A stretch of DNA of 64,000 nucleotides from Labilibaculum sp. Its GTDB lineage: Bacteria > Bacteroidota > Bacteroidia > Bacteroidales > Marinifilaceae. The notes under the pieces are model-generated. The model was not told the DNA's origin, ran no database searches, and saw only the letters and a list, made by a program, of their open reading frames with translations. Both the position numbers and the translations under genes were made by a program. Below, one piece after another: positions 4,019 through 60,365 of this stretch. Numbering within the stretch: position 1 is the stretch's first letter; every line of letters begins with the position of its first letter. The DNA is taken from contig JAEINT010000003.1 of assembly GCA_016342745.1 (NCBI GenBank), positions 124,001 through 188,000 of the forward strand, given 5' to 3'.

Positions 4019-6394
4019 TTATTGATTTTTCGAGAAGAATACTGAACGCCCATTTTTAAGAATTTTGGCATCACCCTTTATATTAATTGTTCCGCTTAAA
4101 CGGATATCAGTGCAAGATGCTGCTAGCTTAAAATCATATTTTCCTGGTACTACAATCCATTGGTTATTTTTGTATTGAACCAATTGCTCAGGTGAAACAA
4201 GGAATTTTATGGATTTTTCTTCACCTGCTTTTAAATCTACACGCTGAAAACCTTTTAATTGTATTGGTTTCATACTTGAATTTTCATCGCTAGGAGAGAC
4301 ATACAACTGAACGATCTCAGTACCGTCCTTTTCACCCGTATTTTTCACTTTACAGGCTATTTCGAAACGATCATCTGTAATTTTAGTGCTAGAGTTCAAT
4401 TGCAAATCACTATAAGTATAATTGGTATATGACAAACCGTATCCGAAAGGATATTGAGGTTCTTCATTTGTGTATCCATTTTTGTAGTTCACCTCTGTTT
4501 TGTCTTCCGATTTAGGGTAAGTGATACACAATTTAGCAGACGGGTTAACTTTACCGATCATGATATCAGCAATTGCTTGTCCACCTTCTTCTCCAGGGAA
4601 CCAAGCTTGAACAATAGCAGCACAACCTTTTTCCAACTCATTTACTACTTGCGGACGACCACCGTACATAACCAAAATTACCGGTTTTCCAGTTGCAATT
4701 AATTTCTTTACGAAAGCTTCTTGTTCTCCTGGTAAACGAATTCCTTTTCTTTCACGCCCTTCACCGCACAAGTAAATGTTTTCTCCCATTACGGCGATAA
4801 TCACATCACTTTCCTTAGATATTTTAAGGGCATTATCAAGATCCGGTTGAGGTACATCTTTAATGGTTAGCATTTTTACTTTTGCCAAACGACTATCGCC
4901 TAATCCATCTTTTTTGATCATTGATTCTAAAGGTGCACTCCAATCGCAACCTCGTTCATGTGCAATGCTAACATCATCTCCAAGAACATTGTGTAAACCT
5001 TCGCTAAGACTAATTAGTTTAGGATTGTTAGGGTCGAAAGATTTACCCCACCAAAACGAAATCATCGATTGGTATGTGTAATCACCTAATAAACCATGCA
5101 CTGTAGCTGCATTTGGTCCAACCAAAGCAATCTTTTTTACATCCTTTTTAAGGGGTAGAATACCATTATTCTTTAATAAAACGATAGACTGACAAGCAGA
5201 TTCATAAGCCAATTTACGGTTTGCAGGAGGATCAAAATTTAATTCTCCATCAATACCAATTGCTGGATTTTCATCCAATAAGCCCAAACGAGCCTTCATG
5301 ATTAATGAGCGTTTTACTGCATCGTCAATTTTTTCTTGGCTTACCAATCCTTCTTTCAATGCTTCAGGTAAATATGGAAAAGCAATTGGTTTTGCAAGTT
5401 CAATATCTGTTCCAGCATTTAAAGCCATAACTGCAGCTTCCTTCGATGAAGATGCCAGTTTGTGTCCAGAATAGGTAAGGTTAATTGCGCCATAATCGCT
5501 CACGACAACACCGTCAAAACCCAACTTTTCTCGTAAAATTGTAGTTAGCATTTCTTTACTGGTCACTACAGCTTTACCTTTGAATCTACCGTAAGAAGGC
5601 ATTACACTTTTTACGTTTCCTTTTTTGATTACTACTTCGTGTGGCATCAAATATTCTTCATAAAATTCCTTAGGATTATTGTTTTGTGTTCCATATCCTG
5701 CAAAGTGTTTTGTTGTAGCGGCAACTCCATTACTGATGTCCTCTCCTTGCAATCCGTTTACAAACGCCAAACCCAAAGCAGAAGTCAAGTAGGCATCTTC
5801 ACCATAACTTTCTTCAATTCGTTCCCAATGAGCGGTGCGACTAAGGTCGAGCATAGGAGACAGGGCATAAGTTGCTCCAGCAGCTCTCATATTTCTTCTT
5901 GTAGAAGCTGAATTTTTGATAATTTGATCTTCATTCCATGAACAACCCATGCCAATTTGCTGTGGGAATGTTGTTGCTCCCTGAGTTGCAAATCCAGTGA
6001 TTGCTTCTTCGTGAAAAATAGCTGGAATTTTGGTTCTGGTTTCGGTCATTAGATAATGCTGAATCTCACGAACAAAGTCTCTTAACTCCGATGGACTCTT
6101 GGTCAAGGAAGATGAAAATTGACAGAAATGTCCTATTCCATGAGGAATGATTTCTCTGCATTTTTCAAGAGATAATTTGCCATCAATCATGAGGTCATTT
6201 GGCCGAATTCCTTCTATTTGTGCTAATTTTTCCTCCAGAGTCATTCGACTCATTATTACTTCAACTTTTGCATCGATTTCTTTATTTGAGAAAGAATTCG
6301 ATTTTTTAGGCTTACTGGAGTCTGAACCGCATCCAAAACAAATCAGTAGGATAAAAAGAATTGAAAATTGGAATCTTATGGATTTTAAAATCAT
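4019..6394 (-). CDS. GH3 beta-glycosidase, lipoprotein
   Basis: A full-length GH3 enzyme (791 residues), an exo-acting beta-glucosidase/beta-xylosidase type. The N-terminus resembles a lipoprotein signal (Cys22 in CFGCGSD). The TIM-barrel domain has the KHF motif at 229-231 and the nucleophile Asp300 in VVSDYGAI. The alpha/beta sandwich follows (about 400-620), then an FnIII-like C-terminal domain (about 680-791) introduced by PFGYGLSYT. It is the last gene of the six-gene leftward unit and starts 17 bp after the GH86 gene ends. A GH3 is not required for pure porphyran, so it may attack xylan or glucan side components of red-algal walls, or an unusual galactoside. Family certain, substrate unknown. 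Confidence 0.92.
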   Translation of the reverse strand: MILKSIRFQFSILFILLICFGCGSDSSKPKKSNSFSNKEIDAKVEVIMSRMTLEEKLAQIEGIRPNDLMIDGKLSLEKCREIIPHGIGHFCQFSSSLTKSPSELRDFVREIQHYLMTETRTKIPAIFHEEAITGFATQGATTFPQQIGMGCSWNEDQIIKNSASTRRNMRAAGATYALSPMLDLSRTAHWERIEESYGEDAYLTSALGLAFVNGLQGEDISNGVAATTKHFAGYGTQNNNPKEFYEEYLMPHEVVIKKGNVKSVMPSYGRFKGKAVVTSKEMLTTILREKLGFDGVVVSDYGAINLTYSGHKLASSSKEAAVMALNAGTDIELAKPIAFPYLPEALKEGLVSQEKIDDAVKRSLIMKARLGLLDENPAIGIDGELNFDPPANRKLAYESACQSIVLLKNNGILPLKKDVKKIALVGPNAATVHGLLGDYTYQSMISFWWGKSFDPNNPKLISLSEGLHNVLGDDVSIAHERGCDWSAPLESMIKKDGLGDSRLAKVKMLTIKDVPQPDLDNALKISKESDVIIAVMGENIYLCGEGRERKGIRLPGEQEAFVKKLIATGKPVILVMYGGRPQVVNELEKGCAAIVQAWFPGEEGGQAIADIMIGKVNPSAKLCITYPKSEDKTEVNYKNGYTNEEPQYPFGYGLSYTNYTYSDLQLNSSTKITDDRFEIACKVKNTGEKDGTEIVQLYVSPSDENSSMKPIQLKGFQRVDLKAGEEKSIKFLVSPEQLVQYKNNQWIVVPGKYDFKLAASCTDIRLSGTINIKGDAKILKNGRSVFFSKNQ

Positions 6395-49906: not shown

Positions 49907-50266
49907 ATGTCGAATACAAATAACTATAAAAGATATTGTAAATCACTTTGTTTGAAAAATGATGACAAACTGATTAAAGAATACAAAGAGGTTCATGCAG
50001 CTGGTGCTGCATGGCCTGAAATTACTCAAGGAATGTTAGATGTTGGTATCATTGATATGGAAATCTACATTGTTAAAAACCAATTGTTCATGATTATGGA
50101 CACACTTGCTGATTTTGATCACGACAAAGCAATGACTGAATTGGCTACCAAGCCACGTCAATCAGAGTGGGAAGCTTATGTTGCTCGTTTTCAGAATACA
50201 TCAGCAGATGCCAGTGCAGATGAAAAATGGCAGTTAATGGAACGTATTTATAAATTAGGACTTTAA
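49907..50266 (+). CDS. L-rhamnose mutarotase-family (RhaM-like) sugar mutarotase
   Basis: A 119-residue alpha/beta-barrel dimeric mutarotase, close to the usual 104-110 residues. Family residues are in CLKNDDKLIKEYKEVH, WPEITQGMLDVGI and the C-terminal WEAYVARFQ. It interconverts alpha and beta anomers of an L-sugar, supplying the anomer used by the 1-dehydrogenase. In this operon the sugar is most likely L-galactose or L-fucose rather than rhamnose. A good AAAGGA precedes the ATG. Confidence 0.87.
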   Translation: MSNTNNYKRYCKSLCLKNDDKLIKEYKEVHAAGAAWPEITQGMLDVGIIDMEIYIVKNQLFMIMDTLADFDHDKAMTELATKPRQSEWEAYVARFQNTSADASADEKWQLMERIYKLGL

Positions 50267-50277
50267 AAAATATAAAA

Positions 50278-51294
50278 ATGAAGCAATTAGTATGTTTAGA
50301 ACCAGGTAAGTTCGAGATGCAAGATCAATCTCAACCTGAAAGAAAAGAGGGGAATGCTTTATTAAAAATAAAGAGAATAGGTATTTGTGGAACCGATTTA
50401 CATGCTTTTGAAGGAACACAGCCATTTTTTTCTTACCCAAGAGTACTTGGACACGAATTAGCTGGAGATATCGTTGATATTGCAGCTAACGATAAAGGTT
50501 TCGAAAAAGGTGAAGCTGTTACTTTTATTCCCTATTTTCCTTGTGGAGATTGTGTTGCTTGTAGAGCTAGTAAGCCAAACTGTTGTACTACTATCGAAGT
50601 TGCCGGAGTTCATATTGATGGCGGAATGGGAGAGTATATGAATGTACCTGAATATGCTTTGATTCATGGTCAGGGAATGAGTTACGACGAGTTGGCTATG
50701 GTTGAGCCAATGGCTGTTGGTGCGCATTCAATTCGCATTACAGAAATCAAAAAAGATGAATTTGTTTTGGTAACAGGTGCTGGTCCAATTGGATTAGGAG
50801 CTATGGCTTTTGCAAAGATTCAAGGAGCTAAAGTAATTGCTTTGGATGTTCAAGATAATCGTCTTGAGTTCGCAAAAGAACACTTTGGTGTTGATTATAC
50901 AGTTAATGCACTAAACAATCCTTTAGAAGCTATTAAAGAGATTACTGGTGGCGATATGGTAACTGCTATCATCGATGCTACTGGAAACAAAAGAGCTATT
51001 GAAGGTAATCTAAACTTCCTTGCTCATAGTGGAAGAATCACTATGGTAGGATTACAGTTGGATACTTTTAGTTTCTCACATCCTGAATTTCACAAAAGAG
51101 AAACCACTCTAAGAAGTAGTAGAAATGCGACTCGTGAGGATTTCGATCACGTAGTGGATTCGATGAAAGCTGGTAAGGTAAATGTAAATTCTTTAATTAC
51201 GCACAGAGCGAAATTTGAGAATATGATTGAAGATTTTAAAACGTGGCTTGATCCTAAGACAGGTGTTGTGAAAGCCGTTGTTTCTCTAGACTAG
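50278..51294 (+). CDS. Zinc-dependent dehydrogenase, probable L-galactonate 5-dehydrogenase
   Basis: A 338-residue medium-chain alcohol dehydrogenase. The catalytic zinc site is ICGTDLH (Cys and Asp) plus LGHELAG (His-Glu). The structural zinc cluster CGDCVACRASKPNCC has four Cys. The Rossmann motif is VTGAGPIGLGAMAF. Members near threonine/sorbitol dehydrogenase include L-galactonate oxidoreductase, which forms D-tagaturonate. Given UxaB in the same operon, that reaction is the simplest reading and closes the pathway. Last gene before the terminator at 51339. Confidence 0.87.
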   Translation: MKQLVCLEPGKFEMQDQSQPERKEGNALLKIKRIGICGTDLHAFEGTQPFFSYPRVLGHELAGDIVDIAANDKGFEKGEAVTFIPYFPCGDCVACRASKPNCCTTIEVAGVHIDGGMGEYMNVPEYALIHGQGMSYDELAMVEPMAVGAHSIRITEIKKDEFVLVTGAGPIGLGAMAFAKIQGAKVIALDVQDNRLEFAKEHFGVDYTVNALNNPLEAIKEITGGDMVTAIIDATGNKRAIEGNLNFLAHSGRITMVGLQLDTFSFSHPEFHKRETTLRSSRNATREDFDHVVDSMKAGKVNVNSLITHRAKFENMIEDFKTWLDPKTGVVKAVVSLD

Positions 51295-51338
51295 ATTTGT
51301 TGATGTAAATCTATAGTTGCGTATATAATAGTAGATTG

Positions 51339-51366
51339 AAGGCTGTCCATTTGGACAGCCTTTTTT
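51339..51366. terminator. Terminator of the L-galactose operon
   Basis: A 10-bp stem AAGGCTGTCC with its complement (ATTT loop) and T6. Also placed to stop the convergent M64 gene. Confidence 0.9.
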
Positions 51367-51372
51367 GTATTT

Positions 51373-52782
51373 CTATTTCGAATACTGATCGATAATTAGT
51401 TTGATTGCTCGTTGACAAGCGGGGCAAAATTCATCGTGACGAGTGAACATGATACAGTTGGAAGCACTTCGGTACAAACCTTTTGATTTGTATTGAGCTC
51501 CTTCAAAAGCACCAACTTTACCACTGTGTTCCATATTTGCCAATAGTTCATCATCCCAACTTCTTTTCTTGATAAAGAAATCTTCCATTACTTTTTCATC
51601 CACCTTAGCTTTGCGCATTTCTACACGCTTTTTTTGAACAGCTATGCTATGTTTGTCATACTTCTCTTTTTCCCAAGGAGTTGGGATTGGAGTTTCTGGT
51701 GTAACAATATCTTTCCACTTAATGGTTTCAGGATCAGTGTTAGCTGTAACGTTTAATTCCCAAGGCTCTAGGTGTTCAGCATCCATTTCATAAGCTGTCG
51801 CAGATGTGTAATACTCATCGGCTAAATCAGCAAAGTGATGACCGAATTCGTGAACAAATAAGTACTCTTGGAAAGCATTATCAACTGCCGCAGTAATGTA
51901 TAAATTGTAAATTCCGCCACCACCATAAATGGAGTCATTCATTAAAATAGCAGTAAATTCGTAAGGTACAGCTGCAGCAGCATTACGAATTGTTTTGTTA
52001 TCGTAACCAAGTGCATAACGTTCCGAATCAAAAGCTCCGTAGGTTACAGAAAGTGCCGAACGTGTATGAATATCCTGATGAGGATGATTTACACCAGAAT
52101 CTGGAGATGGAGTTTCTACTGCTCTAATCGAGAATTTATCTTTAAAAGAAGCATATGGTTCTGTATTCAAAAGAACCTTAGCAAAGCGTTCAGCATCTTT
52201 TTTGAATTTTGCCATGTCTTTTTTAGCATATCCTTCGCCTAAAACAACAATGTCAACTTGTTTTTCAGGTTTGCCATTCACAACAATATCTAAGGTGTTG
52301 TAATGATTTTTCACAGGAGTTGAAAAGGAACGATGATGTTTAGGATCTACTTTGTAGGTCCATACAGGATCGAAGCCATTTCTGATATTTCGTTTCGATA
52401 TAATTACATTTACTTCTGCTTTTGGCCAAGGAAAACGTAAGGACTCATGAAAACTTCCCCATTCTGCTTTTGCTTCAGGTGTTGTTTCCCATTCTCCGTA
52501 AATACTCGCAAATCCTCTTGAGTAAAGTGTTGTTCCTGTTTTAATATCTTTTACTTCAAAAAAGTACTTTCCCAATCGCAATTCATCAATAAGAACAGTT
52601 TTGCTTCCTGCCCACTCGCCATCGTTTACCATTTGATCGAAAGCAAAGTGTTCTTCTCCAGAATTACCAACATGATTGTAATCCAATCGCATGCATGCTG
52701 ATGTAAAATATTCAGCATATTGTGCATTTGCTATGGCCGAAATGCCAATGAGTACAAAGGTAAATAGTAAAATCTTTTTCAT
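51373..52782 (-). CDS. IgA peptidase M64-family metallopeptidase
   Basis: A secreted 469-residue M64 peptidase. A signal peptide covers 1-20. An N-terminal domain of about 150 residues (YAEYFTSACMRLDYNHVGN) precedes the catalytic domain; zinc motif HEFGH at 311-315, followed by ADLADEYY. VLGEGYAKKDMAKF at the start of the domain is typical. The family was named for a clostridial IgA protease, but Bacteroidota members are common and mostly uncharacterised, so no IgA activity should be assumed. Single gene, convergent with the L-galactose operon. Confidence 0.88.
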   Translation of the reverse strand: MKKILLFTFVLIGISAIANAQYAEYFTSACMRLDYNHVGNSGEEHFAFDQMVNDGEWAGSKTVLIDELRLGKYFFEVKDIKTGTTLYSRGFASIYGEWETTPEAKAEWGSFHESLRFPWPKAEVNVIISKRNIRNGFDPVWTYKVDPKHHRSFSTPVKNHYNTLDIVVNGKPEKQVDIVVLGEGYAKKDMAKFKKDAERFAKVLLNTEPYASFKDKFSIRAVETPSPDSGVNHPHQDIHTRSALSVTYGAFDSERYALGYDNKTIRNAAAAVPYEFTAILMNDSIYGGGGIYNLYITAAVDNAFQEYLFVHEFGHHFADLADEYYTSATAYEMDAEHLEPWELNVTANTDPETIKWKDIVTPETPIPTPWEKEKYDKHSIAVQKKRVEMRKAKVDEKVMEDFFIKKRSWDDELLANMEHSGKVGAFEGAQYKSKGLYRSASNCIMFTRHDEFCPACQRAIKLIIDQYSK

Positions 52783-52968
52783 AGTGTAAGTGTTTTCTTA
52801 GAGTTTTGTTGAGCGTACAAGATAAGGAATATCTGATATTGGAAAGATGCTATTCGTCATATCCGGATAGAGAAAATTAATACTGATTTGTGCAAAAGCT
52901 TTTTCATAGATTAAGGGCAGCTTTCGATAATTTCTGTATTTTTAGCTTTTTAGTAAATTTAATCTTTT

Positions 52969-53646
52969 ATGATAGGAACACTCGTAAATGTTATAGCAAT
53001 AATAATAGGTGGTAGTATAGGCCTTTTGTTTCGTACAAAGATTCCAGAACGAATGTTTAAGATTGTTTTTCAGGCAATTGGAGTTTTTACTTTGTATCTT
53101 GGTGTGAGCATGGCTTTAAAGGCTAACGAACTTTTATTAATGGTATTCAGCCTTGTCGTTGGATCCTTAATTGGAGAAGGATTACGTTTAGAAGAACGAG
53201 TTGAAAACTTGAGCGAACTATTAAAAAGGAAGATTGGTAGTAAGGAAGATAAATTTTCGACTGGTTTCGTAACGGCTTTTATGCTTTTCTGTTTGGGAAC
53301 TTTAACCATTTTAGGAAGTATTGAAGAAGGAATGGGAAAGGAGCCAACTTTATTAATGACTAAATCTGTAATGGATGGATTTTCAGCCATTGCATTAGCA
53401 GCAGTGATGGGCGTTGGTGTAATTTTTTCAGTTATTCCATTGCTGATTTATCAAGGAGGTTTAACTTTGTTAGCTGCCTTGTTTGGTGAAGTGATTCCAG
53501 AAGTAATTATTAATGAGATAGCTGGAGTTGGAGGAATATTAATTATAGGTTTGGGAATAAGTATTCTTGAAATAAAAAAGATAAAAGTCTTAAATATGCT
53601 TCCAGCACTTTTGATTGAAGTACTATTGTGCTATATCTTTTTGTAA
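52969..53646 (+). CDS. DUF554 integral membrane protein
   Basis: A 225-residue membrane protein of the DUF554 (YdfK-like) family: MIGTLVNVIAIIIGGSIGLLF start, seven or so hydrophobic segments, GTLTILGSIEEGMG and SVIPLLIYQGGLTLLA as conserved blocks. No known function. Monocistronic or leading the kinase-RapZ gene 46 bp downstream. Confidence 0.85.
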   Translation: MIGTLVNVIAIIIGGSIGLLFRTKIPERMFKIVFQAIGVFTLYLGVSMALKANELLLMVFSLVVGSLIGEGLRLEERVENLSELLKRKIGSKEDKFSTGFVTAFMLFCLGTLTILGSIEEGMGKEPTLLMTKSVMDGFSAIALAAVMGVGVIFSVIPLLIYQGGLTLLAALFGEVIPEVIINEIAGVGGILIIGLGISILEIKKIKVLNMLPALLIEVLLCYIFL

Positions 53647-53692
53647 ATTTGATGATCAGTAAAAAAAATAGGAACCTTAAAATATATTAGAT

Positions 53693-55132
53693 TTGAAAGA
53701 GGAAACAAAAAATGCTCTAATTCAACTATTTGAAGAGTGGGCAGACGACAAAGTTGTGGAGACAGAAATCTTACCACAATCAGGTTCTTATCGTGAATAC
53801 ATTCGATTAATTGGAGAGAAAAGAACTGTTTTGGGTGCGTATAACGCCGATAAAAAAGAGAATAATGCATTTATCAGTTTCAGCAAGCATTTCGCATCGA
53901 AAGGTTTATCTGTTCCTGAAATATATCATGAAAATGCAGAACAAGATATTTACCTTTTGCAGGATTTAGGAAATACAACCTTATTCGATTACATCTTACA
54001 CCTACGAATTGGTGAAGGATTTGCGACCGATTTGGTTTTGATTTACAAGAAAATCATTACTCAATTGGTTCGTTTTCAGACGGAGGGAAGTGACGGTTTA
54101 GATTATAGTGCCTGTTATCCTAGAGATAGTTTCGATAAACAATCAATGATTTGGGATTTACATTACTTCAAATATTATTTTCTGAAATTGGCTAAAATTC
54201 CTTTTGATGAACAATTGTTGGAAGACGATTTTCAGAAATTTTCAGATTATTTATTAGATGCTCCACGAGATTACTTTTTGTATCGCGATTTTCAATCAAG
54301 AAATATCATGTTGGTAAACGGTGAACCTTGGTTTATCGATTATCAGGGAGGAAGAAAAGGGGCGCTACAATACGATTTAGCTTCTTTATTATACGATGCA
54401 AAGGCAGATTTGCCACAAGAGGTTCGCGACGAATTATTTGATTTCTATTTGCAAGAGATTCAGAAAGTTCAGGATGTAGATCCGAAAGCATTTGGATCAT
54501 TTTTCCAAGGCTACGTTCTGGTAAGAATCATGCAAGCAATGGGAGCGTACGGTTTTAGAGGTTTCTACGAAAGAAAAGAACATTTCTTAAAGTCGATTCC
54601 ATTTGCCTTACGCAATTTGGAAACCATATTGAATCGTATGGATATTCCTGTTGAATTGCCGGAATTGGTAAAAGCACTAAAATCTGTTATTGATTCTGAT
54701 TTTTTAAAAGAAGTTGGGAAAGAAGAGAAGCCAAAATTACATGTTGAAATAAATAGCTTTTCGTACCGTAGAGGGATTCCTTTGGATAAAACGACTAACG
54801 GTGGAGGATTTGTTTTCGATTGTAGAGCAATTCACAATCCAGGAAGGTATCAGGAATATGTTGAAATGACAGGGAAAGATCAGCCAGTAATTGACTTTTT
54901 TAAAGTAAAGAGCGAAATGGATGAGTTTTTAACTTCGGTTTTTTCTATTGTTGATATGAGTGTAGATAAATATATCGCACGAAATTTTGCCAATTTACAG
55001 GTGAGCTTTGGTTGTACTGGAGGAAGACATCGATCCGTATTTTCAGCAGATAGTTTAGCAAAACATCTACAAGAGAAATTCGATGTGAATATCAGTTTAA
55101 GACATATTGAAAGAGAAATAGAAGGAAGTTAA
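53693..55132 (+). CDS. AmgK-like kinase fused to a RapZ C-terminal domain
   Basis: A 479-residue fusion from a TTG start (MKEETKNALIQ); no ATG start is available before the conserved region. Residues 1-320 are an aminoglycoside-phosphotransferase-fold kinase with the catalytic loop YRDFQSRNIML (Asp199, Asn204) and metal Asp216 in FIDYQGG, like the amino-sugar kinase AmgK. Residues about 348-479 match the C-terminal domain of RapZ, including FGCTGGRHRSV (439-449). The N-terminal P-loop ATPase of RapZ is absent. RapZ in enterobacteria senses glucosamine-6-phosphate through this domain. With a MurU-like gene just downstream, cell-wall amino-sugar recycling coupled to sugar-phosphate sensing is a reasonable inference. 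Confidence 0.85.
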   Translation: MKEETKNALIQLFEEWADDKVVETEILPQSGSYREYIRLIGEKRTVLGAYNADKKENNAFISFSKHFASKGLSVPEIYHENAEQDIYLLQDLGNTTLFDYILHLRIGEGFATDLVLIYKKIITQLVRFQTEGSDGLDYSACYPRDSFDKQSMIWDLHYFKYYFLKLAKIPFDEQLLEDDFQKFSDYLLDAPRDYFLYRDFQSRNIMLVNGEPWFIDYQGGRKGALQYDLASLLYDAKADLPQEVRDELFDFYLQEIQKVQDVDPKAFGSFFQGYVLVRIMQAMGAYGFRGFYERKEHFLKSIPFALRNLETILNRMDIPVELPELVKALKSVIDSDFLKEVGKEEKPKLHVEINSFSYRRGIPLDKTTNGGGFVFDCRAIHNPGRYQEYVEMTGKDQPVIDFFKVKSEMDEFLTSVFSIVDMSVDKYIARNFANLQVSFGCTGGRHRSVFSADSLAKHLQEKFDVNISLRHIEREIEGS

Positions 55133-55134
55133 TT

Positions 55135-55275
55135 ATGGCCAAGAAACGTTGTAAATTGTCTCCTGAGGAGTACGCAGAAAAAATTTGCAATGCGGAGAAT
55201 TTTATCTGCAAAAAATGCAATCGTGTCGCAAAAAATGTAAAACGATTGTGCGATGCAAAAAAGAAAAAGCAATAA
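55135..55275 (+). CDS. Small Cys-rich basic protein (46 aa)
   Basis: A short gene that starts 2 bp after the kinase-RapZ stop codon. The product has 46 residues: MAKKRCKLSPEEYAEKI at the front, Cys at 6, 18, 25, 28 and 39 including CKKC (25-28), and a Lys-rich tail. The Cys spacing suggests a small zinc-binding fold. The tight junction, unbroken frame and ATG-TAA boundaries support a real gene. Function unknown; translational coupling to the fusion kinase is likely. Confidence 0.6.
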   Translation: MAKKRCKLSPEEYAEKICNAENFICKKCNRVAKNVKRLCDAKKKKQ

Positions 55276-55359
55276 GAAAATCCAGTAATGTGTTTACTAA
55301 TAGTGATTTAATGTGGTTTTCACAGTTCACTGATAACCGTTCACTGAAAACTGATATAG

Positions 55360-56082
55360 ATGTTAAACGCCATGATATTTGCTGCAGGTTTAGGGACTCG
55401 CCTTAAACCTTTCACCAATAACAAGCCTAAGGCTTTGGTTGAATTAGCAGGAAAACCTCTTTTGGAAAGAGCCATTTTAAAATTGATTGAATTAAAGGTC
55501 GATCGTATTGTAATCAACGTACATCATTATGCCGATTTAATCGAAGATTTTCTTCGTAAGAACAATAATTTTGGTGTTGATATTCGAATCTCAGATGAGA
55601 GGGAAGAACTTTTGGATACTGGTGGAGGATTAAAAAAAGCAGCTGACTTATTTATTCCGAATGCTCCCGTATTAATCTATAATGTTGATGTGTTATCTTC
55701 TTTAGATTTGAATGAACTGATTGATCAACATACAAAAAGCGATGCTTTAGTGAGTATGGTAATGCGCGAGAGAACGAGCAGTCGATATTTGTATTTTAAT
55801 ACTAAAAATCAGCTTACAGGCTGGAAGAATTGCAAGACTGGAGAAATAAAAGAAGCAAGAGATGACATGAATAAATCCCAGCCAATGGCATTTAGTGGAA
55901 TCCATCTAATTGACCCAAATCTTTTCTCATTAATAACAGAGAATGGGAAGTTCTCGATTATTGATTTGTATTTGCGATTGGCAAAAGAAGAGAAAATTCT
56001 GGCCTTTAAGGATTGTTCAGAAATATGGACAGATCTCGGAAAACCTGAGGATTTAGCTTGGGCACAAGAGCATCTTAAATAA
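55360..56082 (+). CDS. MurU-like sugar-phosphate nucleotidyltransferase
   Basis: A 240-residue nucleotidyltransferase of the GT-A-like NTP_transferase family. The nucleotide motif is MIFAAGLGTRLKPFTNNKPKAL near the N-terminus (positions 5-26, with the GxGTRxxPxT and KPKAL elements), and the metal Asp is in LIYNVDVLSS. The length (about 240) fits MurU-type UDP-MurNAc pyrophosphorylases rather than longer GlmU or RfbA proteins. With an AmgK-like kinase two genes upstream it recreates the AmgK-MurU pair of anhydromuropeptide recycling. MurU is my best guess but related mannose- or glucose-1-phosphate transferases cannot be excluded. Confidence 0.8.
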   Translation: MLNAMIFAAGLGTRLKPFTNNKPKALVELAGKPLLERAILKLIELKVDRIVINVHHYADLIEDFLRKNNNFGVDIRISDEREELLDTGGGLKKAADLFIPNAPVLIYNVDVLSSLDLNELIDQHTKSDALVSMVMRERTSSRYLYFNTKNQLTGWKNCKTGEIKEARDDMNKSQPMAFSGIHLIDPNLFSLITENGKFSIIDLYLRLAKEEKILAFKDCSEIWTDLGKPEDLAWAQEHLK

Positions 56083-56182
56083 TTTACTTATTTTTGGACA
56101 CAACAATTAAAATGGCATTATCTACAAGTTAATGTACAGATGAATTACTTGTTGTGACAGATCAAAACTAAAAACGAAATTC

Positions 56183-56860
56183 ATGTTAGAATGGTTAATT
56201 AACCTTGATAAAGAATTGTTATTGTTACTAAATGGGCAACAACATTATTTTTGGGATTATTTAATGAGGCTAATTTCTGAAAAGGAAATGTGGTATGTGT
56301 TTTATGTTGTGCTTATTGGTTGTATTTTAAACACTTATGGCTGGAGAAAAGGCGGTTTGATTCTTATCAGTTTAGTTTTGGTAATCGTAGTAAGCGATCA
56401 AATAGCTTCTGGAATTTTTAAACCACTGTTTAAAAGGTTTAGACCATCAAGAGATCCAGATTTTAGTCATATGGTTAATTTGGTACAAGGATATACAGGA
56501 GGTAAATATGGTTTTGTTTCCTCGCATGCAGCAAATTCATTTGGATTAGCTGTGCTTGCCAGCTTGATTTTAAAGAATAGAATTACCAGTGTTTTTCTGA
56601 TATTTTGGGCAATAATTGTTTCTTACTCTCGAATTTATTTGGGTGTTCACTATCCTGGAGATATTCTTGTTGGCTCTTTAATTGGAATTGGAATGGCGTA
56701 TTTGGGCTATTTTTTACTGCAAAAGTATTTTAAATCAAGTTTGATTAAAAAACCAGTAGAACGAACCCACCCAATGGGCAGAATTTATCAAATTAGTTTG
56801 ATAGGAACCTTGCAATTTGTAATGATGGCTTTCTCTGTCTACTTTTGTTTTAATCGTTAA
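56183..56860 (+). CDS. PAP2-family membrane phosphatase
   Basis: A 225-residue membrane protein with five to six hydrophobic segments and the three PAP2 motifs: KRFRPSRDP, SSHAANSFG and SRIYLGVHYPGD (catalytic His and Asp). It is of the undecaprenyl-pyrophosphate or lipid phosphate phosphatase type. A role in recycling the cell-wall lipid carrier suits its neighbourhood, but it may act on other lipid phosphates. Confidence 0.88.
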   Translation: MLEWLINLDKELLLLLNGQQHYFWDYLMRLISEKEMWYVFYVVLIGCILNTYGWRKGGLILISLVLVIVVSDQIASGIFKPLFKRFRPSRDPDFSHMVNLVQGYTGGKYGFVSSHAANSFGLAVLASLILKNRITSVFLIFWAIIVSYSRIYLGVHYPGDILVGSLIGIGMAYLGYFLLQKYFKSSLIKKPVERTHPMGRIYQISLIGTLQFVMMAFSVYFCFNR

Positions 56861-56928
56861 TCAATCGATATTTGTGATACGATCAGGAAAAATATTAATA
56901 AAAACTATTTCATAAATATATTATAAGG

Positions 56929-57558
56929 ATGAATCTAAAACCAATTATTTACGCTGCTGTTCGAGTAGTATTGTATGCTATTCCTGTTGTGGCTTCTGCA
57001 TTAGTTATCAAAAGCGATGCAGGAATTCTTGTCGATGGTATTAAGTTTGGAGAAGGATCTTCAACAGAGTGGATGCAACAATTGTTTTTGTTGCTAACTA
57101 GTTTAACTTTTATATTGGCTGGTATTCGTTCGAAATCACATAAGGCAATATCTTACCTTTTTGGAGGTGGTGCTTTGGTTGCTCTAATCAGAGAGTTAGA
57201 TGTTTATTTCGATCAGATTTACCATGGTGCTTGGTTTCCTTTTGCAATAGCTGTACTGGCAATTGCTATTTTTCTTGCTTATCGTCAGAAAAAGCAAATT
57301 TGGGAGAATTTGGAAGAGTTTTTCACAACACCGGCATTTGGAACTTTTATTGCTGGTTTTCTGAGTGTATTTGTTTTCTCTCGTTTGTTTGGAACCAAAA
57401 AAGTTTGGAGAGCTTTATTTGATGTTGAGAAATTAGAGCCAGTACAACGTTGGGTAAAAAATGCTGTGGAAGAAGGAAGTGAATTGTTCGGTTATACCTT
57501 ACTGTTTATAGCTGCAGTCGAGTTTTTTGTTTATGTTTCGAGAAAATTGAAGCAGTAA
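56929..57558 (+). CDS. Integral membrane protein of unknown function
   Basis: A 209-residue protein with about five hydrophobic segments and no domain I recognise. Conserved-looking polar residues occur inside the membrane part (RELDVYFDQIYHG) and at the end (EEGSELFGYTLLF). Followed by a terminator. Confidence 0.7.
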   Translation: MNLKPIIYAAVRVVLYAIPVVASALVIKSDAGILVDGIKFGEGSSTEWMQQLFLLLTSLTFILAGIRSKSHKAISYLFGGGALVALIRELDVYFDQIYHGAWFPFAIAVLAIAIFLAYRQKKQIWENLEEFFTTPAFGTFIAGFLSVFVFSRLFGTKKVWRALFDVEKLEPVQRWVKNAVEEGSELFGYTLLFIAAVEFFVYVSRKLKQ

Positions 57559-57577
57559 ATGCTTAAGATATATGAAT

Positions 57578-57609
57578 AAAAAAAGGCATCCAACAGGATG
57601 CCTTTTTTT
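57578..57609. terminator. Bidirectional terminator between membrane protein and mnmA
   Basis: A 14-bp perfect stem AAAAAAAGGCATCC with its complement and AACA loop; A tract and T tract on the two sides. Confidence 0.92.
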
Positions 57610-57627
57610 ATTTATATGTTTTTGAGA

Positions 57628-58800
57628 TTAGTCAATCACTCCCGAACCAATTAATTCTCCTTCATCATACCAAGCGGCAAATTGTCCGGAAACTACAGCT
57701 CTTTGTGGTTCATCAAAAAGAATATACAATCCTTCATTTTTGAAATAAATTGTTCCTTTTTGTAAGGGTTGTCTGTATCTAATTCTAATATCATATCTTC
57801 TTTCACATTCTTCGGTAGGTATTAAATCTTCACGAACCCAGTGAATTTCTTTCTTTGGAATAAACAAAGCTTTTCTTTCAAGTAAAGGATGTCCATGCCC
57901 CATGCCAACGTAAATAATGTTTTTCACAACATCAGTACCAATTACAAATAGTGGTTCTTTTTTACCTCCAACATTTAATCCTCTTCGCTGACCTACAGTA
58001 AAAAAGTGTGCGCCATTGTGCTCTCCAATAACATTTCCATGTTCTGGTTTAAATTCATAAGGCATTGATATAGCTTCCAATGAATCTGATTTCGGAACTA
58101 TTTCATCTGCTTTTTCAGGCATGATTTCAATGATCTTACCCTTCTTTGCTTTTAGCTTTTGCTGTAGGAAAACAGGTAAATCTACTTTTCCAACAAAACA
58201 AATGCCTTGTGAGTCTTTTTTCTCAGCAGAAGCCATTTTTTCACGGCGAGCAATTTCTCTTACTTCAGGCTTTATAATGTGACCAATTGGAAACATCGCC
58301 TTTGAAAGTTGTTTCTGCGAAAGTTGGCAAAGGAAATAACTCTGATCTTTATTGTTATCCTCGCCAGCAATTAATCGATAAATTTCTTTACCATCTTTTA
58401 CAATGGTTTCCTTTTGGCAGTAATGTCCTGTGGCTACATAATCAGCACCAAGCTCTACTGCTTTTTCTAGAAATACATCAAATTTAATTTCACGATTACA
58501 AAGAACATCTGGGTTTGGTGTGCGACCTTTTTCATATTCCGAAAACATGTAGTCAATCACTTTTGCACGATATTCTACGCTTAAATCCACAAAATGAAAT
58601 GGGATTCCTAGTTTTTTAGCTACCATTTGAGCAAATAATACATCTTCTTCAAATGGGCATTCTTCAGATTTTAAACCAACGGTATCGTTCCAGTTCTGCA
58701 TAAAAAGTGCTTCGACTTCATACCCTTGCTCAATTAATATATGAGCAGCAACACTAGAGTCTACTCCTCCCGATAATCCGATTACAACTTTCTTCTTCAT
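57628..58800 (-). CDS. mnmA: tRNA 2-thiouridylase MnmA
   Basis: tRNA-specific 2-thiouridylase (390 residues from the ATG at 58800; an ATG 10 codons upstream is less likely). The PP-loop [10 protein letters not shown] is at 10-19. The catalytic Cys101 lies in [12 protein letters not shown] and the second catalytic Cys in [17 protein letters not shown] and YFLCQLSQ are family blocks. It catalyses 2-thiolation of U34 in Lys, Glu and Gln tRNAs. Housekeeping; monocistronic. Confidence 0.95.
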
Positions 58801-59006
58801 TACTAATTTCTCCTTCTTTTCAGATTGCAAAAGTATTCAAATTTTGGCTTAGTGCCAATTGTCCCTGACGAATTGGGAATAATTTAACATGTAAAGTTAC
58901 TTATGTATTTTTTTAGAATCGAAAAATGACTTAACTTCGATAATGTTTTATGTAGGGTGATTTTATTATGCCACCCTAAATCATTAGTTTATTAAATACA
59001 AAAAAA

Positions 59007-59891
59007 ATGAAAAAACTTAGTTTTACATTGCTACTTTCTTTTGTAGCTATATTTGTTTCCGCACAGGAAAAACAGGATACCTCATACTGGAAAAAAGGAG
59101 GTATGGCTTCTATCACATTTTCACAAACATCATTAACGAATTGGTCAGGTGGTGGTGATAATGCCGTTTCAACAAATGCTATTTTAGATGTTTTTGCAAA
59201 TTTTAACAAAGGGAAAAATAGTTGGGAGAATGTAATGAAACTTGAATACGGCTTGGTGAAGCAAGGCGATGAAGGTGTTCGAAAAAGTATCGATAAAATT
59301 GATTTTACATCGAAATATGGATATAAAAATGGTGGACATTGGTTCTACACAGCCTTATTTGATTTTAAAACACAGTTTGCTAAAGGTTATAATTATAGTA
59401 GTACCGATGGTGTTGATGATGTAAAAGTTTCTAACTTTTTGGCTCCAGCTTACATGACTTTCTCTGTGGGTATGGATTACAAACCAAATGATATTTTTTC
59501 AGCTTACATTTCACCTTTAACTAGTAAAATGACTGTTGTTAATGATGATGATTTATCGGATGCAGGTGCTTTTGGTGTTGATGCAGGTGATAAATTCAGA
59601 GGTGAGTTTGGTGCTTTTACAAAATTGGCTGTGAATAAGGATATCATGAAAAATGTGAATTTTAAATCTACTTTAGATTTATTTTCTAATTATTCTGAGA
59701 ACTTTGGAAATGTTGATGTTACTTGGGATGTAATGATAAACATGAAAATTAATAGTGTTCTTACCGCCACAATCAATACTTCATTGGTTTACGATGATGA
59801 TGTTGATTATATTGATGATGAAGGAATGAACAAAGGACCAAAAATTCAGTTTAAGGAAATTGTAGGACTTGGATTAGCTTATAAATTCTAA
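59007..59891 (+). CDS. DUF3078 outer-membrane-type protein
   Basis: A 294-residue protein with a signal peptide (1-19) and alternating beta-strand pattern ending in GLGLAYKF, as in small outer-membrane barrels. The N-terminal SYWKKGGMASITFSQTSLTNWSGGGDN is the DUF3078 signature. Function unknown. Followed by a terminator shared with the convergent lipoprotein. Confidence 0.85.
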   Translation: MKKLSFTLLLSFVAIFVSAQEKQDTSYWKKGGMASITFSQTSLTNWSGGGDNAVSTNAILDVFANFNKGKNSWENVMKLEYGLVKQGDEGVRKSIDKIDFTSKYGYKNGGHWFYTALFDFKTQFAKGYNYSSTDGVDDVKVSNFLAPAYMTFSVGMDYKPNDIFSAYISPLTSKMTVVNDDDLSDAGAFGVDAGDKFRGEFGAFTKLAVNKDIMKNVNFKSTLDLFSNYSENFGNVDVTWDVMINMKINSVLTATINTSLVYDDDVDYIDDEGMNKGPKIQFKEIVGLGLAYKF

Positions 59892-59929
59892 TTGAATTTT
59901 TGAACTAGTAAAGCAATCCTAGATATTAT

Positions 59930-59967
59930 AAAAGGGAAGAATCAATTATTTGATTCTTCCCTTTTTT
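59930..59967. terminator. Bidirectional terminator DUF3078/lipoprotein
   Basis: A 16-bp perfect stem AAAAGGGAAGAATCAA with its complement, TTAT loop, T7. Its T tract touches the stop codon of the lipoprotein gene. Confidence 0.92.
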
Positions 59968-60365
59968 TATCTTCTAACCAGAGATATTCCTGTTTTTTCT
60001 TCTACAAATAGAAAGTAATTGTAAAGTTTATAATTGATATCAAATCCATAATCTTCAAAAGGATCATAACTTATGTAATTCTCGAAATAAGGATGACCTT
60101 GAAGGTGCTTTTGGTTCCATTCTGTCACGTAAATATGATTCCAATTTTTATAATAGGTATTGGAATGTGCCGTGGCGATAGAACTTCTAGTAGCCAACCA
60201 TGATTCAAAACCAATATCTAGAATTAGTAGCTCATATTCAGTACTGTCTTCTGCCAGTATTTCAGAATTGGTATCATTAATAGGAATCGGTTTTTTAAAT
60301 GCTGATTGAGTAGCACAGCCATACAGAAATAAGCTTGTTATGGCGAAAAAAAGAATCTTTTTCAT
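59967..60365 (-). CDS. Small lipoprotein of unknown function
   Basis: A 132-residue protein from the ATG at 60365; lipobox LYGC (Cys17). No recognised domain. Contains many aromatic residues (YYKNWNHIYVTEWNQ). Its 3' end touches the terminator stem. Confidence 0.65.
   Translation of the reverse strand: MKKILFFAITSLFLYGCATQSAFKKPIPINDTNSEILAEDSTEYELLILDIGFESWLATRSSIATAHSNTYYKNWNHIYVTEWNQKHLQGHPYFENYISYDPFEDYGFDINYKLYNYFLFVEEKTGISLVRR

Follow-up and report, generated by a model that had tools for sequence, protein, structure and literature searches.

A kinase–RapZ_C fusion encoded with a MurU-like enzyme: a candidate unit for MurNAc salvage, seen mainly in Bacteroidota

The C-terminal domain of RapZ (RapZ_C) is widespread and poorly understood. 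In Escherichia coli it binds glucosamine-6-phosphate (GlcN6P); its job outside enterobacteria is unclear because the RNA-binding part of the protein is restricted to the Enterobacteriaceae (PMC7073468). What, then, does this domain do where it is joined to something other than the P-loop half of RapZ? The question is raised by a locus in a 64,000-nucleotide stretch of a Labilibaculum genome (contig JAEINT010000003.1, positions 124,001 to 188,000; hereafter the window), in which one gene encodes a kinase resembling AmgK followed by RapZ_C, and genes for a small four-cysteine protein and a MurU-like nucleotidyltransferase stand behind it (Table 1). The unit places RapZ_C, without the P-loop half, in a named pathway with a testable substrate. 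We propose that RapZ_C may act here as a cysteine-dependent phosphatase that takes the 6-phosphate off N-acetylmuramic acid 6-phosphate (MurNAc-6P) before the kinase acts, a reading to which we assign a probability of about 0.45 and which, if true, would give the domain a concrete enzyme role.

An AmgK-like kinase joined to RapZ_C

A first-pass annotation of the window had proposed that an AmgK-like kinase replaces the P-loop half of RapZ, and profile searches bear this out. PF22740 (RapZ_C) matches residues 350–472 of the fusion with 112.8 bits against a cut-off of 27, and the RapZ profile PRK05416 aligns to residues 310–471 only, below its own cut-off (104.6 versus 244 bits). The P-loop N-terminal half of this profile finds no match in the fusion; residues 17–312 align instead to positions 15–305 of 324 in the AmgK profile NF045759. 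This match misses the equivalog cut-off (66.8 versus 550 bits), and we therefore call the kinase AmgK-like only. When solved structures were searched by sequence (phmmer), the fusion found E. coli RapZ (through residues 309–471) and, as the sole kinase, 3csv, a Silicibacter protein labelled aminoglycoside phosphotransferase, which also ranks top by fold in a Foldseek comparison with the whole fusion (AlphaFold model; mean predicted local distance difference test (pLDDT) 91.0, predicted template modelling score 0.70). Because the 50 Foldseek matches listed held kinase-like entries and no RapZ, we modelled the C-domain alone (pLDDT 93.4). This model superimposes on the E. coli RapZ C-terminal domain 5o5s with Z 20.3 and a root-mean-square deviation of 1.5 over 123 residues; RapZ structures as a group score Z 19–21, and the best non-RapZ entry scores Z 7.0. 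In an alignment of the fusion with 20 relatives at 40–57% identity, R198, D199, F200, Q201, R203 and N204 are invariant across all 21 rows, a motif that we take to be the catalytic loop of APH-type kinases.

The enzyme encoded last has two MurU models as its best families, NF045697 and NF045761 (E 1.2e-35 for the latter), in agreement with the first-pass assignment. Both equivalog cut-offs are missed (128.2 versus 370 bits and 123.4 versus 250 bits), and both models lead the best non-MurU family (91.4 bits) by more than 30 bits. Its solved relatives are 4y7t and 8hhd, the second of which is labelled MurNAc alpha-1-phosphate uridylyltransferase. Judging from family resemblance and genome context, the kinase and the MurU-like enzyme very probably serve MurNAc salvage: the kinase would phosphorylate MurNAc, and perhaps N-acetylglucosamine (GlcNAc) too, at C1 to give MurNAc-1-P, which the MurU-like enzyme would convert to UDP-MurNAc (UDP, uridine diphosphate). 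A kinase followed by MurU is also found in the AmgK–MurU–MupP route of Pseudomonas and Caulobacter (PMC5371407, PMC13046382); unlike in that route, the kinase here carries the RapZ C-terminal domain, which has the RapZ fold and not that of the HAD-type phosphatase MupP.

The arrangement in the window is no assembly artefact: among the best 80 of 588 relatives in named genomes, the closest is a fusion from Labilibaculum filiforme, 89% identical and with a TTG start at the same place, which is likewise followed by the small protein (at 70% over 44 residues) and by a match to MurU. A profile search found one copy of RapZ_C in the window's genome, and hence no classical RapZ beside the fusion.

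Table 1. Features of the unit in the window
Feature	Positions	Strand	Details
Kinase–RapZ_C fusion gene	53693..55132	+	479 aa, TTG start
AmgK-like kinase domain	53741..54628	+	residues 17-312; NF045759 E 1.7e-18
R198-D-F-Q-S-R-N204 motif	54284..54304	+	alignment of 21 rows
RapZ C-terminal domain	54740..55108	+	residues 350-472; PF22740 E 1.5e-32
C441-T-G-G-R-H-R-S448, CX5R(S) loop	55013..55036	+	equals E. coli C247-S254
46-aa zinc-ribbon-like protein, four conserved Cys	55135..55275	+	relatives at other loci
MurU-like nucleotidyltransferase, 240 aa	55360..56082	+	NF045697 E 3.2e-37

Conservation of the partnership

RapZ_C was found in 98 of the 119 genomes sampled from the window's order, in 24 of 295 from its class and in 36 of 296 from its phylum (these samples overlap), as well as in 6 of 14 controls drawn from several phyla. 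The AmgK profile matches 23 of the 295 class genomes, every one of them a RapZ_C genome; in the 24th RapZ_C genome of the class (G172), the gene runs off the end of a contig. MurU follows the same line within the order, being present in 93 of the 98 genomes with RapZ_C versus 6 of the 21 without. The grouping of kinase, RapZ_C and MurU as a unit, first suggested from the window, is thus upheld.

We fetched 83 RapZ_C loci, comprising 23 of the class (all but the window), all 19 that the phylum sample gave from other classes and 41 from the order, among the last the six whose frames are short and the three whose frames are longest. Kinase and RapZ_C are fused at 71 of these loci (L150 is counted as fused) and are separate neighbours at 9; at three there is no adjacent kinase. 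One of the three is cut by a contig end, and the other two lie in genomes of other classes (G443 and G526) that hold both genes far apart and unlinked. With the two domains fused or adjacent at 80 of 83 loci, the concern that they might in most genomes be unrelated neighbours falls away. MurU lies within 1.5 kb at 56 of the 83 loci.

A scan of named genomes, of which the best 80 of 588 relatives are considered here, gives shares that are biased, because the CTGGxHRS motif is partly written into its seed patterns and full-length matches rank higher: 79 of the 80 loci are fused in frame and 53 have MurU within 1.5 kb. These relatives come from Bacteroidota and, as metagenome-assembled genomes only, from Ignavibacteria, Calditrichota, Acidobacteria, Elusimicrobia, Deferribacteres and Delongbacteria. 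The gene set is conserved and is seen mainly in Bacteroidota.

In searches for RapZ in one literature collection, we found no description of a link between RapZ_C and AmgK or MurU, or of a kinase–RapZ_C fusion. MurNAc salvage in another member of the Bacteroidota, Tannerella forsythia, includes a 6-kinase, MurK, that makes MurNAc-6P, and an AmgK/MurU branch has been proposed beside MurK/MurQ (PMC7670621); the sections of that paper cited here describe this branch without mention of RapZ. The fusion was found in Parabacteroides chinchillae, which belongs to the same family, Tannerellaceae.

In a kinase tree built by a quick method only, rows with the kinase alone are scattered, with weak support, among the fusions, which fits repeated loss of RapZ_C; a single origin is also possible. 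Some loci depart from the common layout. L141 (G553; 4073–6283, minus strand) encodes a 736-residue protein with an N-terminal B3/4 domain (PF03483) ahead of the kinase and RapZ_C, and the next open reading frame (ORF), which is MurU-like, overlaps its end by 7 bases; a 750-residue frame in this genome had been considered as a three-part fusion with MurU, and was rejected once the N-terminal part proved to be the B3/4 domain. At G605:C39:26859-27488, a MurU-like match sits within a 563-residue open frame, perhaps another fusion, and at L028 (1794–2779) the MurU gene is split across two frames by a frameshift or an assembly error. The orphan RapZ_C genes of G443 and G526 (loci L139 and L140), with the kinase elsewhere in the genome, have the same glycine-rich insertion as the domain in the window, described below.

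A candidate phosphatase step before the kinase

What the domain contributes to this pathway has to be read from its pocket and from the company that it keeps. In E. coli RapZ, a pocket that holds sulphate or malonate, and is the proposed GlcN6P site, consists of H190, T248, G249, H252 and R253, with C247 near. Four of the five residues are kept in the window. H190 corresponds to G384, and this position is G in 80 of the 83 rows with a letter there, Y in two and H in one; a glycine-rich insertion of five residues (TNGGG in the window) stands just ahead of the conserved VFDCR stretch. C247, T248, G249, G250, H252, R253 and S254 (E. coli numbering) are kept in the window and at all 83 loci (82 tallied by alignment with E. 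coli RapZ, and L150 read separately), and CTGGxHRS is kept in 79 of the best 80 of 588 named relatives. In the window, this stretch, C441-TGGRH-R447-S448, has the form of the CX5R-(S/T) loop of Cys-dependent phosphatases.

By contrast, the RNA-binding residues R238, K270 and K281–K283 of E. coli RapZ are replaced in the window by F432, V465 and I476-E477-G478. The first position holds an aromatic residue (F, Y or W) in every one of the 83 rows with a letter there, the second is hydrophobic in nearly all, and K281–K283 are variable; basic residues at 238 and 270 occur in none of the aligned relatives. This agrees with the earlier suggestion that the unit works without an RNA-based GlmZ circuit. 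No match at the gathering threshold was returned by an Rfam scan of window positions 50000–60000. In its fold and CTGGxHRS pocket the domain is like that of the RapZ/YvcJ/HpaP family, and the protein is unlike that family in having a sugar kinase in place of the P-loop N-terminal half; it differs from E. coli RapZ in lacking the RNA-binding residues and H190 and in having the glycine-rich insertion.

The idea that RapZ is a phosphatase is already in print as a hypothesis. Khan and Gorke (2020; PMC7199280) likened the RapZ pocket to the loop found in Cys-dependent tyrosine phosphatases, and suggested that RapZ might hydrolyse GlcN6P. Another paper (PMC7525490), citing a separate study, credits the homologue YvcJ with NTPase and phosphatase activities.

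Under the reading that we prefer, the source of MurNAc-6P would be AnmK, acting on anhydroMurNAc, or a MurNAc 6-kinase; the CX5R loop of RapZ_C would remove the 6-phosphate, and the freed MurNAc would be handed to the fused kinase. RapZ_C would then do the job of the Pseudomonas HAD phosphatase MupP with a different fold. Fusion or adjacency fits such a hand-over between consecutive enzymes, and fits a sensor as well. The first-pass annotation had in fact cast RapZ_C as an amino-sugar-phosphate sensor that controls the kinase or is fed by it. A fair rival is thus a non-catalytic domain that senses such a phosphate (GlcN6P or MurNAc-6P) and thereby turns the activity of the fused kinase up or off. 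The E. coli domain binds GlcN6P with a dissociation constant of 10 nM by surface plasmon resonance and acts as a sensor (PMC7073468), most of the pocket is kept, and a sensor joined to the entry enzyme of a pathway is a sensible arrangement. A sensor as such does not, however, need the invariant loop cysteine, and the near-universal exchange of H190 for glycine, with an insertion near in sequence, sits poorly with it; we consider this explanation unlikely, and the GlcN6P version possible and not the best supported.

That the domain only aids kinase folding or oligomerization, or that the kinase takes another sugar in place of MurNAc and the product of the unit is a different nucleotide sugar, is improbable in our view. 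In solution the C-terminal domain of E. coli RapZ forms a homodimer (PMC5737377), and both enzymes fall below the AmgK and MurU equivalog cut-offs; yet a scaffold does not require an invariant CX5R loop, RapZ_C also occurs as a separate gene and is unlinked in two genomes, and the lead of both MurU models over other families speaks against a different nucleotide sugar.

Genome content bears on the choice of substrate. AnmK makes MurNAc-6P, from anhydroMurNAc, and MurQ consumes it. Across the order (n = 119), RapZ_C is present in 69 of the 73 genomes with AnmK and without MurQ versus 29 of the 46 others (Fisher p 2.7e-5), the latter divided into 6 of 8 with both genes, 10 of 16 with MurQ only and 13 of 22 with neither. 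For the class we used a subsample of 70 genomes, made up of the 24 with RapZ_C and 46 of the 271 others (two from the same order and the rest taken at even steps). MurQ was called here at E below 1e-80; weaker matches, mostly frames near 615 residues, were taken as other SIS-domain proteins. It is found in 9 of these 24 versus 42 of the 46 (p 3.5e-6), and 11 of the 12 genomes with AnmK and without MurQ have RapZ_C. Of the four RapZ_C-less class genomes that lack MurQ, two are 70–74% complete and one measures 1.2 Mb. Caulobacter similarly has AnmK, AmgK and MurU without MurQ, as do many fusion genomes with respect to AnmK and MurQ, and MupP is reported there (PMC13046382), a parallel that we count in favour of a MurNAc-6P phosphatase. 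The RapZ_C unit may fill the missing MurNAc-6P step in Bacteroidota that have AnmK and lack MurQ.

Genomes with the kinase alone point in the same direction. G651, G552, G571 and G653, each listed as 99% complete, have the kinase as a gene of 330–378 residues together with MurU, and no RapZ_C, AnmK or MurQ. Where order genomes have the kinase and its 3′ end can be read, 75 of the 98 with RapZ_C also have AnmK, versus none of the four without RapZ_C (p 0.004), as expected if RapZ_C handles MurNAc-6P made by AnmK, though not proof of it. Four RapZ_C-negative genomes with AnmK (G606, G652, G567 and G630) gave no kinase match. A fifth, G559, was not counted among the kinase-only cases, as the contig ends inside its kinase gene; it was kept as RapZ_C-negative in the order-wide AnmK and MurQ counts.

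A sensor predicts neither the tie to genomes with AnmK and without MurQ nor the absence of RapZ_C from the four AnmK-less genomes, and a phosphatase accounts for more of what was observed; the persistence of RapZ_C in 23 order genomes without AnmK is in turn what a sensor would allow. Improbable, too, is a phosphatase whose substrate is a sugar phosphate other than MurNAc-6P (GlcNAc-6P, GlcN6P or a kinase-inhibiting product), which would edit or balance pools and not feed MurNAc to the kinase. GlcN6P binding by E. coli RapZ (PMC7073468) and the AmgK family name, which spans GlcNAc as well as MurNAc, would suit it; the tie to AnmK and MurQ speaks for MurNAc-6P instead.

Several observations weigh against the proposed MurNAc-6P phosphatase. 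The fold of RapZ_C is that of RapZ, followed by weaker phosphofructokinase-like entries, and tyrosine phosphatases are absent from the entries listed in the structure comparison; the named locus L211 has H instead of the loop arginine. RapZ C247A and C247S are inactive in vivo, and the pocket and C247 variants tested also fail to bind GlmZ (PMC9841335), so lost function need not mean lost catalysis. The unit has no MupP gene, although no search was aimed at a HAD-type MupP elsewhere in the genomes. In Fisher tests that throughout ignore relatedness, AnmK in the class tends, if at all, to be less frequent with RapZ_C (17 of 24 versus 43 of 46, p 0.026) and so does not by itself track the domain there, and the order-level MurQ contrast taken alone is weak (16 of 98 RapZ_C genomes versus 8 of 21 others, p 0.035). 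Besides the 23 AnmK-less order genomes already mentioned, those 16 with MurQ include the window's own, in which AnmK, MurQ and the fusion all occur. Of the 21 order genomes without RapZ_C, 9 were searched for the kinase, and the AnmK contrast rests on the four kinase-only cases; counting G559, it becomes 1 of 5 (p 0.016).

For genomes without AnmK, a MurNAc 6-kinase could be the source of MurNAc-6P, by analogy with MurK in T. forsythia. It is possible, and we suggest it more tentatively than the phosphatase step itself, that the RapZ C-domain is at root a sugar-phosphate phosphatase, here acting on MurNAc-6P and fused to the downstream kinase, and that the RNA-binding sensor of E. coli is a derived, repurposed form. 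In the window's genome, MurQ and AnmK lie about 21 kb apart (G000:C58:118183-118950 and 139879-140970), and its AnmK scores unusually high (E 1e-140, versus 3e-94 or weaker in the other 69 genomes).

The small four-cysteine protein and neighbouring genes

The tiny cysteine protein that had been noted between the fusion and the MurU-like gene starts 2 bases after the fusion's stop and is, to judge from its conservation, a real gene. A chance ORF had been considered, as the 23 class loci gave a best E of 0.04 only, and was overturned by the 60 further loci, where five relatives turned up, together with a sixth that reads in frame with MurU. Across the six aligned rows (the window and five relatives), C6, C25, C28 and C39 are invariant, and likewise M1, K3, A32 and L38. 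The protein looks like a zinc ribbon: one relative weakly matches the A2L zinc ribbon (E 0.005, below the cut-off), and the window's copy matches nothing in Pfam or NCBIfam at E up to 1.

A profile of the six rows finds the protein in 29 of the 119 order genomes; for 20 of these 29 matches, RapZ_C or MurU is no more than 500 bases away, or for 14 of 23 when the genomes that supplied the rows are excluded. A relative stands directly behind the fusion in 7 of the best 80 of 588 named loci (L197, L198, L199, L204, L206, L208 and L209). We regard the protein as a further partner of the unit, one for which no family match was found. At L176 its frame runs into MurU and the start is ambiguous, and we claim no fusion there.

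Two neighbours were rejected as members: DUF554, upstream, and PAP2, downstream, both occur only at L025 among the 23 class loci, and in 2 and 0, respectively, of the 60 further loci. In 9 of the 29 genomes, the small protein is encoded away from the kinase and MurU. Besides the copy in the window, members can be read at L172 (3792–3938), L181 (4449–4577) and L149 (3900–4019).

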